DNA from: Aceticella autotrophica
Lineage (GTDB): Bacteria > Bacillota > Thermoanaerobacteria > Thermoanaerobacterales > Thermoanaerobacteraceae
Length of the DNA: 64,000 bases
Assembly (NCBI RefSeq): GCF_017357865.1
Contig: NZ_CP060096.1
Coordinates: forward strand, 1,599,001 to 1,663,000
Direction: 5' to 3'
This document shows, one piece after another, positions 2,505 through 63,203 of the stretch. The position numbers and the translations under genes are program-made. Positions within the stretch are counted from its first letter, which is position 1; every line of letters starts with the position of its first letter. The notes beneath the pieces were generated by a model that ran no database searches, was not told the origin of the DNA, and saw only the letters and a program-made list of their open reading frames with translations.

Positions 2505-2897
2505 TTATGATTTAACAATTTTTATATATATTTTTCTTTTTCTTGGACCATCAAACTCACAAAAGAATATACCCTGCCATGTACCCAAAGCCAGCTTGCC
2601 ATTTTCAATTATAAGATTTACTGAACTTCCTATCAGAGAGGCTTTTATATGTGCATCTGAATTTCCTTCTACATGCTTAAATCTTATATCAGGTATCATT
2701 TCCCTTAAACTCAGCATAATATCACACTTTACATCAGGATCGGCATTTTCGTTTAAGGTAATACCTGCAGTGGTATGCGGTACAAAAACAATACAACTGC
2801 CATCCCTCACTCCACATTTTTCTATTTCACTATCTACTATGTTTGTAATATCCATCATAACTTCCCTTACAGGTGTATTGATTTCATGTATAATCAC
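2505..2897 (-). CDS. yjbQ: YjbQ/UPF0047 family protein (secondary thiamine-phosphate synthase type)
   Basis: A 130-residue single-domain protein with the UPF0047 signatures HTTAGITLNENADPDV, EGNSDAHIKASL, and LGTWQGIFFCEFDGPRKR near the C-terminus. Family length is about 130-140, so it is complete. Members carry a weak thiamine-phosphate synthase side activity and conserved His/Glu residues; their main role remains unsettled. GGAGGTG precedes the ATG at 2897. It is the second gene of a short minus-strand run after the THUMP methyltransferase gene (33 nt gap). Confidence 0.9.
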   Translation of the reverse strand: MIIHEINTPVREVMMDITNIVDSEIEKCGVRDGSCIVFVPHTTAGITLNENADPDVKCDIMLSLREMIPDIRFKHVEGNSDAHIKASLIGSSVNLIIENGKLALGTWQGIFFCEFDGPRKRKIYIKIVKS

Positions 2898-21176: not shown

Positions 21177-21258
21177 GAGCGGAAAACCCATCATTAAGAT
21201 GAACTTTCCACCCTGAAAGCCAAAATCTTGATTCAAGTAAAAACTTGATCAACCGAAA
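21177..21258 (-). promoter_or_regulatory. structured leader of the DUF1646 gene, candidate Na+-I (DUF1646-motif) riboswitch
   Basis: On the minus strand the leader contains GTGGAAAG and TTTTCCGC arms enclosing a CATC-TTAAT-GATG hairpin, followed by a T-rich run just before the gene. A second hairpin, TCAAGT-TTTT-ACTTGA, lies upstream. DUF1646 genes often carry the Na+-sensing riboswitch of the same name. I cannot align the consensus from memory, so the class is proposed from gene context, and only the pairing is seen directly. The remaining bases down to the mgtA end at 21425 are AT-rich and show nothing clear. Confidence 0.4.
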
Positions 21259-24316: not shown

Positions 24317-24324
24317 CATTAAAA

Positions 24325-24482
24325 TTATACATTCGTTGAGTTTTAGCACTATACAGCTTTAAGACAAAATTGCTCAGCCACACTAAGTAAAACCTTGATT
24401 CGGTAATACCTGTTAGCCCATTGGCATCTCTCGATGTTTCCGGGCAGCAGCGTATATCTGTATAGGAGCCTCACCTAACGTA
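24325..24482 (-). promoter_or_regulatory. M-box (ykoK leader) Mg2+ riboswitch
   Basis: The minus strand reads CGTTAGGTGAGGCTCCTATA, then ATACGCTGCTGCCCGGAAAC, then GAGATGCCAATGGG and later CTGTATAGTGCTAAAAC. These match the conserved M-box blocks of Bacillus mgtE leaders almost base for base. It binds Mg2+ and terminates transcription before mgtA when Mg2+ is plentiful. Confidence 0.95.
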
Positions 24483-24507
24483 AAATATTTAGTTCTCAAC
24501 CGCTTAA

Positions 24508-25911: not shown

Positions 25912-25936
25912 CATATATACCGATATTTTAATATGA

Positions 25937-26026
25937 CACCTTCCCTCCGCTGGTATTATCCAAACAGGTTCAAAGGGTTTGGGAAATTCCCCATCTCAGC
26001 CGCTTATACAGCACCCCCTGGCAACG
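25937..26026 (-). promoter_or_regulatory. TPP (THI-box) riboswitch
   Basis: The minus strand carries GGGGGTGC, GGCTGAGATG, ACCCTTTGAACCTGTTTGGA and TAATACCAGCGGAGGG, the conserved thi-box elements. It precedes thiC and a terminator, so thiamine pyrophosphate would switch off transcription. Confidence 0.97.
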
Positions 26027-26093
26027 AATTTTTTAATTATATTAATTTTTTATTGTATTCTCTATTGTATAATATTCCCGTACTGATGTATAA

Positions 26094-26160: not shown

Positions 26161-26508
26161 TTAAGGCTCTACAAGACATGTAACTGTCAGTTTTAATAAA
26201 TAAATAAGCTGTTTTTTGTCCAAAAGTTTTAATTCGTCAGTGGCTTCTATAAAAACCCATATATTATTTGCAAGAAATATTTTTTCAGCAGGTAAATATG
26301 TTTCATTCCCATAACCTGTTAAGTAATGCATTCTTTTACCAAGGGATTTTGCAAAATATACCTTTTTAATCGGGTAAAGTTCACAAATAAGTCTTGCTGC
26401 CTCAGTAAGGCTGTGATTCATATCCTCTTTTTCAAAAACCGCTTTTAAAAATGAAATAACCGCTTCTTTTTTAGAAGTACAAATCACGTTTACCACCTTC
26501 AATATCAT
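26161..26508 (-). CDS. unknown 115-residue protein overlapping the 3' end of the hydG-like gene
   Basis: A 115-residue protein with no family I recognise. It overlaps the upstream HydG-like gene by 38 bases, so the two are tightly coupled. ATG 26508 has only a weak SD; GTG 26487 with AAGGTGG 5 nt before it is a real alternative start. The sequence alternates hydrophobic and charged segments (AARLICELYPIKKVYFA, LANNIWVFIEATDEL) and looks like a small alpha/beta domain. Two cysteines near the ends are not arranged as a cluster motif. Context suggests a role with the radical SAM enzyme. Confidence 0.6.
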   Translation of the reverse strand: MILKVVNVICTSKKEAVISFLKAVFEKEDMNHSLTEAARLICELYPIKKVYFAKSLGKRMHYLTGYGNETYLPAEKIFLANNIWVFIEATDELKLLDKKQLIYLLKLTVTCLVEP

Positions 26509-27955
26509 TTAACATTTCCCTTAATTTCTCTGCTCTTTGCGGCTTCTCCTGCTTGAAATCCTCTAAATAAGCATTGATTACTTTTTCTCCTATCATCTTA
26601 GTTTTCGGCGAAGCATAGTTCATCAGATATTCTTTAAATGTAAGAATAGCATTAGGAGTGCAAAAATACTTTACCTTTCCTTCCTTTGCAAAGGACATAA
26701 ACTGACATCCCGTTCTTCCAGCTCTATAACCCGCCGTACAGAAAGAAGGTATATAATTTTGTTCACATAGTTCATATAAAACATCGTCAAGAGGTCGAGA
26801 GTCAGCTAACTGAAATTGTTCCCTGTTTTCAAGCCCTTCTTTTTCGGCATCTTGATATCCTCTTATTGCGATATTTGAACCTGCATCAATTTGTGATACA
26901 CCAAGAGGAATAACCTCTTTACGAAGTTTAGGACTTTCCCTGCATGTTAATATCATACCTGTATATGGTACAGAACAGCGTATAACAGCAACCAATTTTT
27001 TGAAATCTTCATCACTTACTTTATATGGCAGATTTCTGAGAAATGGTGTATTAACTGCCGGCTCCAAACGTGGGAAAGAAATAGTATGTGGTCCTACCCC
27101 AAACTCTCTTTCTAAATCCATAGCATGATAAAGCAGACCCAATACCTCAAACTTCCAATCATAAAGACCTAACAATGCTCCAATAGCAACATCATCAATA
27201 CCAGCCTCTTGCGCCCTGTGAAGAGAGAAAAGCCTCCATTTATAAAAGGATTTTAAACTGCCCTTTGGATGAACCCTTTTATATGTTTCATGATGGTAGG
27301 TTTCCTGAAATATTTGATATGTGCCTATCCCTGCTTCTTTAATCTTTTCGTATTCATCTACAAAAAGAGGAGCTGCATTAATATTTACCCTTCTTATTTC
27401 ATTATCGCCATCCTTTGTTGCATATATCTTTTCAATAGTCTTGCACATAAAATCCACATCACTGACAGGATGTTCACCATAAACAATAACTAAACGTTTA
27501 TGCCCATGGGAGGTTAAAACCTGCACTTCCTTTTCCAGCTCTTCCATTGAAAGTACCATTTCCTTTAAGCTATCATTGCTATGCCTGAAACCACAATAAG
27601 CACAGTTGTTCACACAAGGATTAGAAATATAAAGAGGTGCAAACAAAACAATACGATTTCCATATATCTGTTGTTTTATCTGGTGAGCCGTTTCAAAAAT
27701 TTCCTGCCATAAATCTTGATTCTCATTATTTAAAAGTACAGCTGCTTCTTCTGGTGTAAGTCCCTTCAATAACCTTGCTTTTGATAATATATCCCTGACT
27801 CTTTGGGGTTCAGGATTCCTATTGTTTTGTAAAATGCTTTCTATTTTGTCATCATCAATAAAGTCTTTTCTTGTTTCTTTTTCCTCATACTCGGTTATCT
27901 TTTTTGCTCTATCATCAAGCCATTCTTTTTCTTCCCTGCTTAACATATCTTTCAT
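26471..27955 (-). CDS. HydG-type tyrosine-lyase radical SAM protein with altered auxiliary-cluster motif
   Basis: A 494-residue protein whose length and sequence follow HydG, the maturase that cleaves tyrosine and builds the Fe(CO)2CN unit of [FeFe]-hydrogenase. The SAM cluster motif is C114-x3-C118-x2-C121 (CVNNCAYC). The C-terminal auxiliary cluster motif should be C-x2-C-x22-C (typically CTACYR); here it reads CTAGYRAGRTGC...C, that is C406, Gly409, C432, with an extra C417. Gly409 is a GGT codon, one base from TGT. It may thus build an altered cluster, or serve as a ThiH-like dehydroglycine source, given thiC next door. Leader RNA with terminator upstream. Confidence 0.85.
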   Translation of the reverse strand: MKDMLSREEKEWLDDRAKKITEYEEKETRKDFIDDDKIESILQNNRNPEPQRVRDILSKARLLKGLTPEEAAVLLNNENQDLWQEIFETAHQIKQQIYGNRIVLFAPLYISNPCVNNCAYCGFRHSNDSLKEMVLSMEELEKEVQVLTSHGHKRLVIVYGEHPVSDVDFMCKTIEKIYATKDGDNEIRRVNINAAPLFVDEYEKIKEAGIGTYQIFQETYHHETYKRVHPKGSLKSFYKWRLFSLHRAQEAGIDDVAIGALLGLYDWKFEVLGLLYHAMDLEREFGVGPHTISFPRLEPAVNTPFLRNLPYKVSDEDFKKLVAVIRCSVPYTGMILTCRESPKLRKEVIPLGVSQIDAGSNIAIRGYQDAEKEGLENREQFQLADSRPLDDVLYELCEQNYIPSFCTAGYRAGRTGCQFMSFAKEGKVKYFCTPNAILTFKEYLMNYASPKTKMIGEKVINAYLEDFKQEKPQRAEKLREMLNDIEGGKRDLYF

Positions 27956-27984: not shown

Positions 27985-28021
27985 AAAAAAGCCTGCTTCC
28001 CATTTTGGCAAAAAGCAGACT
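27985..28021 (-). terminator. intrinsic terminator in the hydG-like leader
   Basis: GTCTGCTT and AAGCAGGC pair (8 bp, one G-U) around a loop, followed by TTTTTT on the minus strand, 30 nt before the hydG-like start codon. A terminator inside a leader implies conditional readthrough. Confidence 0.82.
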
Positions 28022-28162
28022 TTTCAGAATTTCAACTTCCGAATTTCCGTAAAGTCCCTTGCCCTCAGGAAAATACCCTTTTCGCAGGACTTTTTTATTA
28101 AGTTGTCGGACTCCCTTCAAAGCGAAATAACTCGTTTTTGTCAGGAGTATACCTTCCCCTTT
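28022..28162 (-). ncRNA. unidentified structured leader RNA upstream of the hydG-like gene
   Basis: Between the promoter and the terminator lie about 140 bases with nested helices: CAACTT (28100-28105) with AAGTTG (28033-28038), inside it AAAGTCC (28087-28093) with GGACTTT (28051-28057), then a GG...CC hairpin. The 5' part holds GGGGAAGGTATACTCC and a CGA/TCG hairpin. The composition is richer in G than the surroundings. It does not show the marks of TPP, cobalamin, FMN, SAM-I, lysine, glycine, M-box, T-box or fluoride elements. Most likely a riboswitch or attenuator controlling the HydG-like operon. Confidence 0.6.
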
Positions 28163-28168
28163 TTTTAT

Positions 28169-28197
28169 ATTATAATCTCCTTTATTATATTTGTCAA
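28169..28197 (-). promoter_or_regulatory. promoter of the hydG-like leader/operon
   Basis: Perfect TTGACA (28192-28197), 17-nt spacer, perfect TATAAT (28169-28174) on the minus strand. It lies between the end of the ChlI-ChlD gene and the leader, so the hydG-like operon is its own transcription unit. Confidence 0.88.
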
Positions 28198-47213: not shown

Positions 47214-48272
47214 TCATAGCTTAGCAAAAAATCCAGGTTTAGGAGTATGCCCATAGTCCTTAGATACCCTTCTGCCATGCTGTAATAATTCTTTTTCCCA
47301 AGATGCAAAAGAATTATCAAAATTTAAAAGCTCTGAAGATTTTGGGTAAATTTCATAGTTGGTTTTGTAAATCATAGGAGTTAGATCAGGCATAATCACA
47401 TTTGCACCACATGATAAAGCCTTAAAACGCCCCTCAGGTGATAAATTTGCCAATGCGGTGGTAGCAGGAAGATGTGTTAAAGGAAGCAAGAGCCTTGTTA
47501 TTGCAATTACTTTCAAAACCATAGAAACAGACCCAACAGGATACCCACGAAGAGGGGTCTCAGGATGTGGAATAAAAGGTCCGATTCCAGCCATTTCTAC
47601 ATCCAATTCTTTCGTTAGCAGAATATCATCCGCTAAAGTCTCTATACTCTGCCCGGGCAAGCCTACCATAAATCCTCCTCCTATTTGATATCCAAGTTCC
47701 CTCAAATCTTTAAGTCTGTTCAATCTCCCTTGAAGAGTAGTGCCAGGTCGTAATTTTTCGAAAAGCTCTTTATCTGATGTTTCATGTTTTAATAGATACC
47801 TGTCAGCACCAGCTTCTCTTAAAATCTTATAGAAATTTTTTGAGTGTTCTCCCACCGACATAGTGATTGCAAGGTCAAGATTATCCTTCATTTTATTAAT
47901 CAATTCCGCCAATATATCAACTTTATACCAAGAATCTTCTCCTGATTGAAGCACAATCGTCATATATCCCTGATTTCTTGCTTCCTTTGCTGCTTCATAT
48001 ATCTCATCTATTGTCATCCTGTTTCTATTTACAACATGATTTTGACATCTTAAACCACAATAAAAACACTCTCTGCTGCAGTAATTAGAAAACTCAATAA
48101 TCCCCCGTAAATGTACCTCATCCCCAAAATTATTTTTTCTAAGTTTATCGGCTTCCTGAAATAACAACTCCTTATCTTTACCTTCTGCTTCAAGTAACAT
48201 GATTATTTCTTCTTTGTTAAGTTCATGAGTTATTAATGCTTTTGTTATAACCTTTTCAATTTTGGTTGTCAT
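47214..48272 (-). CDS. hydE: [FeFe]-hydrogenase maturase HydE-type radical SAM protein
   Basis: A 352-residue BioB-like radical SAM enzyme. HLRGIIEFSNYCSRECFYCG carries the C-x3-C-x2-C motif in the HydE context, followed by LQSGED, KHETSDKELFEKLRPG, GGFMVGLPGQ and PHPETPL. HydE processes an iron-cysteine complex on the way to the H-cluster dithiomethylamine bridge. It is not next to hydF or a hydrogenase here; instead it leads a run with an amidohydrolase and an alcohol dehydrogenase. A promoter lies upstream. Confidence 0.9.
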   Translation of the reverse strand: MTTKIEKVITKALITHELNKEEIIMLLEAEGKDKELLFQEADKLRKNNFGDEVHLRGIIEFSNYCSRECFYCGLRCQNHVVNRNRMTIDEIYEAAKEARNQGYMTIVLQSGEDSWYKVDILAELINKMKDNLDLAITMSVGEHSKNFYKILREAGADRYLLKHETSDKELFEKLRPGTTLQGRLNRLKDLRELGYQIGGGFMVGLPGQSIETLADDILLTKELDVEMAGIGPFIPHPETPLRGYPVGSVSMVLKVIAITRLLLPLTHLPATTALANLSPEGRFKALSCGANVIMPDLTPMIYKTNYEIYPKSSELLNFDNSFASWEKELLQHGRRVSKDYGHTPKPGFFAKL

Positions 48273-62967: not shown

Positions 62968-63017
62968 TAAAACAGAAATCTCCCTCATATACCGTTCCCT
63001 CCCCTCCGAAGGCCAGT

Positions 63018-63185
63018 TTAGCATTCAGGCAGGTCTCCTGGCTCTGATATCATCCTACTCCCGTTCCTTCCCGGTTTCCCAGTGGAATTAATACGGTTTC
63101 GTCCTTCATTACAGTAGCAGGGGCTGCAGCGGATTTTCACCGCTTTCCCTATTAAGCTTAAAAAGCACCTGATGCTCTTGTTATT
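63018..63185 (-). promoter_or_regulatory. cobalamin (AdoCbl) riboswitch
   Basis: On the minus strand: AGGTGCTTTTTAAGC near the 5' end, AATAGGGAAAGCGGTGAAAA, the B12-box GCTGCAGCCCCTGCTACTGT, then GGGAAGGAACGGGAGTAGGA, GAGCCAGGAGACCTGCCTG. These are the conserved elements of the class. It lies 200 nt upstream of btuF, so cobalamin represses the import/chelatase/exporter operon. Confidence 0.97.
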
Positions 63186-63203
63186 TAATTTTGCCTTTAA
63201 TTA

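Follow-up and report, generated by a model that had tools for sequence, protein, structure and literature searches.

A leader RNA upstream of hydG in Aceticella autotrophica is a divergent member of an apparently undescribed RNA class associated with [FeFe]-hydrogenase maturation genes

Which RNA lies between a consensus promoter and the hydG gene of Aceticella autotrophica, and to what signal might it respond? This question is raised by a locus on the minus strand of the window, by which we mean the whole stretch of 64,000 nucleotides that was analysed. To our knowledge, the control of [FeFe]-hydrogenase active-site assembly in bacteria is little understood. A sequence-only reading of the locus had described a promoter, a leader of about 180 nt with nested helices and, 30 nt upstream of a HydG-like gene, an intrinsic terminator, and had taken the leader for a riboswitch or attenuator. 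The features needed for the argument are the following:

28192 to 28197, minus strand: promoter -35 box TTGACA (12/12 consensus match jointly with the -10 box, spacer of 17)
28169 to 28174, minus strand: promoter -10 box TATAAT (part of the same 12/12 match)
28110 to 28148, minus strand: domain D1 (unconstrained fold only)
28051 to 28093, minus strand: domain D2, AAAGUCCUGCGAAAAGGGUAUUUUCCUGAGGGCAAGGGACUUU (match of model R3 at 28090..28054)
28051 to 28064, minus strand: antiterminator strand GGGCAAGGGACUUU, which is the 3' strand of D2 and the alternative partner of the terminator 5' arm (predicted folds)
28027 to 28049, minus strand: small hairpin, approximately CGGAAAUUCGG...UUCUG, between D2 and the terminator and inside the antiterminator (predicted folds)
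27985 to 28022, minus strand: intrinsic terminator with a stem of about 15 bp followed by a U run (centroid fold, 190-nt fold and terminator searches)
26471 to 27955, minus strand: hydG, encoding the [FeFe]-hydrogenase H-cluster radical-SAM maturase (TIGR03955, 498.5 bits, cut-off 312.15)
26161 to 26508, minus strand: gene for a 115-aa protein overlapping the end of hydG (open reading frame; distant homologues 3' of hydG in other motif-bearing operons)

Each of the parts described earlier was recovered in the analysis. The promoter TTGACA-17-TATAAT (28197..28169) is of the sigma-A type and ranks highest among 24 promoter-like sites in 4.8 kb, and transcription is expected, by inference, to start at about position 28162 on the minus strand. 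The leader of 184 nt has a minimum free energy (MFE) of -56 kcal/mol, compared with -40.2 +/- 3.8 kcal/mol in dinucleotide shuffles (z = -4.2; 0/200). The terminator hairpin AAGUCUGCUUUUUGCC...GGAAGCAGGCUUUUUU has its 3' end 30 nt ahead of the ATG at 27955; with a loop of more than 8 it was invisible to the first terminator scan and was recovered in later searches. The downstream gene is indeed hydG, and its product of 494 aa carries BATS and radical-SAM domains. Since the genome, which consists of one 2.27-Mb contig, also contains two HydA matches over the cut-off and encodes HydE within the window (47214-48272), this organism can be expected to assemble the H-cluster.

The 115-aa protein has no Pfam or NCBIfam match. 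Proteins of 100-115 aa that likewise lack a Pfam or NCBIfam match are encoded 3' of hydG in L221, L229, L233, L235, L259 and L270, where they sit in hyd operons of the window type from several lineages; they are only 18-27% identical to the protein of the window, but a small number of P, G and R positions are invariant. The window also contains an M-box (24321-24489), a TPP (25925-26028), an Na+ (DUF1646; 21202-21254) and a cobalamin riboswitch (63011-63187), all on the minus strand, of which the M-box precedes a Mg-transport ATPase and the TPP riboswitch precedes thiC.

The element in the leader was discovered by a whole-leader DNA similarity search of the order, which returned only the 26-nt core AAGGGUAUUUUCCUGAGGGCAAGGGA. 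This core immediately precedes hydG in a sister genus, where it belongs to CUAAGCCCAAGGGGAUUUUCCUGAGGGCAAGGGAGGAG, a sequence that was found in a second genus too and in which some species have GUCC/GGAC in place of GCCC/GGGC. Model R1 drew on close relatives alone and proved too narrow. An initial model located the core in further families of the phylum, where it often stands in two copies with a terminator behind them, ahead of TM1266-hydG or hydE operons. A hand-written descriptor overlooked copies with a 3-bp P1, and a MAFFT alignment of the new copies put P1 wrongly, so that a model-guided alignment was used instead. The class consensus is CU(G/A)A-[P1]-AAGG-[P2]-CUGA-[P1']-AAGG, with a core of 37 nt that frequently occurs in tandem. 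Two near-identical internal loops, in which CUGA faces AAGG, flank a P1 helix of 4 bp. The two loops represent one motif in opposite orientations, which makes the core pseudo-two-fold symmetric. The loop bases are nearly constant and the C-G and U-G pairs beside each loop hardly vary, and the sequence of P1 is free to vary with its pairing kept, five or six pair types being found at each P1 position.

The comparison of homologous hydG leaders that the sequence-only reading had proposed revealed this common structured element and strong covariation within it. In alignment A5, which contains 23 hand-cut sequences aligned by sequence only, there are 34 cells with changes on both sides of a pair, compared with 9.8 in shuffles (0/500). 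For alignment A7, which comprises 60 copies without the window, the both-sided changes amount to 140 (shuffles, 47) and the covariation score reaches 0.61 (shuffles, 0.21), with one-column slides as a control scoring near 0.15; the A7 counts lean towards the structure because the model used for the alignment already contained P1. Moreover, L083 to L090 and L093 carry D1 copies in tandem that were recovered by model R2, although no D1 domain had been used to build it. The RNA class and its structure were established in this way by computation.

The window leader is a divergent and atypical member of the class, because P1 of D2 is not paired normally and D1 has only the outer loop. Using model R3, from which the window had been left out, D2 was the top match in the window (19.2 bits, E = 0.0064), and it also ranks first in the whole 2.27-Mb genome with a genome-wide E of 0.23. 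D2 keeps both loops of the class (CUGC..AAGG..CUGA..AAGG) together with P2, and its P0 is lengthened to about 7 bp (AAAGUCC/GGGACUUU). Its P1, with GAAA against GGGC, shows no canonical pairing. The close HydG relatives L109, L110, L264 and L265 have the CUGCG form as well, also with a poor P1; since this form is common to them, it may represent a subtype and need not be the result of decay. D1 was not detected by R3. In the predicted fold, it consists of P0 (ACUCCU/GGGAGU), a GA/AA internal loop, a P1 that pairs (CAAA/UUUG) and an apical hairpin (CGAG/UUCG), and it is thus a half-motif that retains the outer loop and has exchanged the inner one for a longer plain hairpin. By eye, a D1-like half-motif is also present upstream of TM1266 in L296, L298 and L301. 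Another R3 match in the window (2740..2700, minus strand, 15.6 bits) was rejected as probably due to chance; no hyd gene lies downstream of it and two of its P1 positions are unpaired.

How is the element distributed? R3, built without the window, was used to scan 398 genomes of the phylum at E <= 0.01 and detected the motif in 87 of them. The hydG gene is present in 79 of the 87 motif genomes and in 214 of the 398 genomes overall (Fisher p = 1.3e-16). Where hydG could be mapped, the motif genomes gave 63 hits, of which 46 are located up to 5 kb upstream of hydG in the same orientation; none is downstream of it or antisense to it. Part of those loci had been used in building R3 and many others had not. 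In named genomes, which were searched in addition, the element was found in Thermotogota, Thermosipho, Syntrophales, Caldatribacterium, Neomarinimicrobiota, Thermodesulfobacterium, Spirochaetales and Desulfotomaculum, copies from other phyla being L113, L124, L126, L137, L162 and L168. The first genes 3' of the motif encode TM1266, which is the commonest, HydG, HydE, HydF, an ECF S-component or an NMT1/SsuA-type ABC importer. The window leader fits this picture in standing before an H-cluster maturation gene on the same strand with a terminator in between. The gene association is a computational observation, and the TM1266, HydE, HydF and HydG genes behind the element bear out the link to hydrogen metabolism that had been among the suggestions made for the leader.

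The importers deserve separate description. An orphan ECF S-component (PF12822) is encoded behind the element in L219, L220, L222, L223, L226 and L227, twice after TM1266, and NMT1/SsuA-type ABC importer genes stand behind it in L225, L240, L251, L252, L254, L255 and L256, several of them directly after TM1266. Several hits were judged false because they lie within coding sequence, namely L237 and L258 (both gyrase-A-like), L224 and L262, as well as L248 and L249, which are of low complexity. A well-scoring copy in L111 (2297-2333, minus strand) is located on the strand opposite hydG and is followed by a U-rich stretch. In L008 and L013, a palindrome like TTGTTGAAnAATTAACAA, which by eye resembles a Rex operator, was seen about 60-90 nt upstream of hydG. 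It overlaps the hydG promoter in the sister genera; none was seen in the window.

The element is also associated with intrinsic terminators. A strict terminator is present within 140 nt 3' of the element in 20 of 28 loci, compared with 0.04 per shuffled locus, and in 0/28 on the upstream side. Pairing between the 3' strand of the last copy and the terminator 5' arm was compared with shuffles in 54 leaders, and the mean z was -1.2, with 83% of the values being negative. The strongest examples are L137 (z = -5.2), in which CAAGGGAUG pairs with CAUCCCUUG, L124 (-4.6) and L110 (-4.2). With 9 of the 54 leaders having a z above 0, the competing pairing is a trend and not universal. For the window, D2 and the terminator arm pair only mildly better than shuffled sequences (z = -0.9). 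The MFE structure of the window leader moves from D2 to the pairing of GGGCAAGGGACUUU with the terminator arm once the 5' arm has been transcribed. The fold path starts with D1 and D2, continues with the capture of GGGCAAGGGACUUU by the arm and ends, at 190 nt, with the complete terminator and a re-formed D2. The MFE folds of 184 nt and 214 nt correspond to the antiterminator state, and the two full-length states are nearly equal in energy. Terminator and competing pairing were both identified computationally, and in the predicted structures the leader has what defines a riboswitch expression platform, a terminator opposed by an alternative pairing.

From these folds, a mechanism may be proposed. 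The nascent RNA would first fold D1 and D2. If the ligand is scarce, the terminator 5' arm would capture the 3' strand of D2, and the resulting antiterminator would allow the transcription of hydG. A ligand bound to the loops would hold D2 shut, so that the terminator could form and transcription would stop. Since the fold path leads from D2 through the antiterminator to a terminator with D2 restored, stabilisation of D2 should end transcription, which corresponds to an OFF switch. In sister genera within the family, the same core is located directly before the start codon and would probably block translation. That the leader regulates, that it does so in the OFF direction and that a small-molecule ligand is bound directly by the RNA are inferences. 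We hold it to be somewhat probable that the leader is an OFF attenuator of an unreported RNA class, presumably a metabolite riboswitch for H-cluster assembly, and its regulation is untested. A small molecule is favoured as the signal because two unrelated importers are found under one RNA; the ligand would most probably come from H-cluster biosynthesis or be a precursor that is imported. With good confidence, the element can be regarded in more general terms as a phylum-crossing RNA sensor for H-cluster assembly, which recognises either an H-cluster-specific compound directly or TM1266 by means of its two pseudo-symmetric loops. Such a compound could be a product of HydG or HydE, a CO/cyanide-iron synthon or an imported precursor. 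The earlier reading as riboswitch or attenuator is supported, neither of the two results that would have refuted it, a strong Rfam match or missing covariation among homologous leaders, having been obtained, and the choice between a small-molecule riboswitch and a protein-bound attenuator is not resolved. A direct metabolite riboswitch is our first choice, and binding of TM1266 is its strongest rival.

It is possible, if doubtful, that the element is a protein binding site, most likely for TM1266, which might occupy the two pseudo-symmetric loops as a dimer, in the manner of LicT-type proteins on RAT hairpins; TM1266 would then sense a metabolite and control its own operon and the hyd operons by attenuation. 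The TM1266 family (TIGR03959, PDB 2NZC) has been called a putative regulator, the mechanism of which is not known. TM1266 matches PF21699, PDB 2NZC and, weakly, NikR_C, and this ACT/NikR-C-like putative hydrogenase regulator has no recognised DNA-binding domain. The gene is present in 82 of the 87 motif genomes; among the other five, three have hits judged false inside coding sequence, one has no adjoining hyd gene and one is unexamined. Of the genomes with hydG, 79/183 with TM1266 have the motif compared with 0/31 without it (p = 2.4e-7). TM1266 is also the gene most frequently following the motif, about half of 40 loci that had escaped the genome scan have the motif upstream of it, and the pseudo-two-fold symmetry of the core would suit a dimer. 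However, the co-occurrence derives in part from phylogeny and from the membership of TM1266 in the regulon, and in the family of the window TM1266 is encoded elsewhere, without the motif. The best TM1266 gene of the A. autotrophica genome (G000:C1:1061543-1061770, L289) lies far from the hyd genes, and no copy of the element was found upstream of it. We know of no RNA-binding activity demonstrated in the TM1266 family. In spite of its near-perfect co-occurrence and frequent adjacency, TM1266 is a protein of untested function and a possible partner of the element, not a relative.

It is improbable that the leader is merely a constitutive structured 5' untranslated region or stability element next to the ordinary terminator of another transcript, without any ligand-dependent switching. 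The degenerate P1 of D2 in the window and the absence of expression data behind the switching would agree with such an element, but it would not account for unpaired loop bases that are invariant across phyla, the tandem duplication, the fixed place before one pathway and the pairing that competes with the terminator.

That the leader has diverged from a class already known, such as a PyrR site, a T-box or another Rfam riboswitch, is hardly tenable, because the overlapping match to the PyrR binding site RF00515 (E = 5.7) reaches only 18.7 bits compared with a gathering score of 54 and is followed by hydG instead of pyr genes, and because no Rfam hit came from any leader that was scanned, even from those with strong copies of the class. 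When the window leader was compared with the 4227 families of Rfam 15, none reached the gathering threshold and the best match below it had an E above 0.7, in line with the earlier remark that no common riboswitch signature fits. The leaders of relatives matched no Rfam family at gathering either, and permissive thresholds gave chance hits only.

Still, the element has similarities to known systems. PyrR attenuators of pyr operons (RF00515) also have a conserved loop element that acts as an anti-antiterminator before an intrinsic terminator, but their loops and genes differ and the symmetric two-loop core is that of the hyd element. The LicT/SacY RAT is likewise a short hairpin that adjoins a terminator and contains two internal loops similar to each other; however, it is the antiterminator itself, whereas the hyd element competes with the antiterminator, and the sequences are unrelated by eye. 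No BglG-type gene was seen beside the hyd element. The glycine, guanidine-II and Moco/Wco riboswitches also have tandem copies of a single small domain, with a terminator and the genes of a cofactor pathway behind them, but the hyd element has no match in Rfam. A review on Moco/Wco riboswitches mentions hydrogenase only for Wco tandems (PMC9481103).

The RNA class appears to be undescribed, with neither an Rfam family nor a paper being found, and a description in a subscription journal is not excluded. In the literature, of which open-licence papers only were searched, nothing relevant was found on a riboswitch associated with hydG, hydE, TM1266 or FeFe hydrogenase. The main texts of surveys of RNAs in 26 and in 50 bacterial genomes, supplements apart, do not mention hydrogenases (PMC8632094, PMC11109978). 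The importers imply the uptake of a nutrient or metabolite tied to H-cluster assembly, which would be new to us, and the substrate of the ECF S-component could reveal the ligand. Moreover, the ligand or protein partner could be approached with an RNA of 40 nt. The class would also add a simple architecture to the regulatory RNAs, in which two like loops are arranged around one variable helix. An RNA switch that is common to hydE, hydF, hydG, TM1266 and two kinds of importers would provide a direct handle on the control of [FeFe]-hydrogenase active-site assembly.
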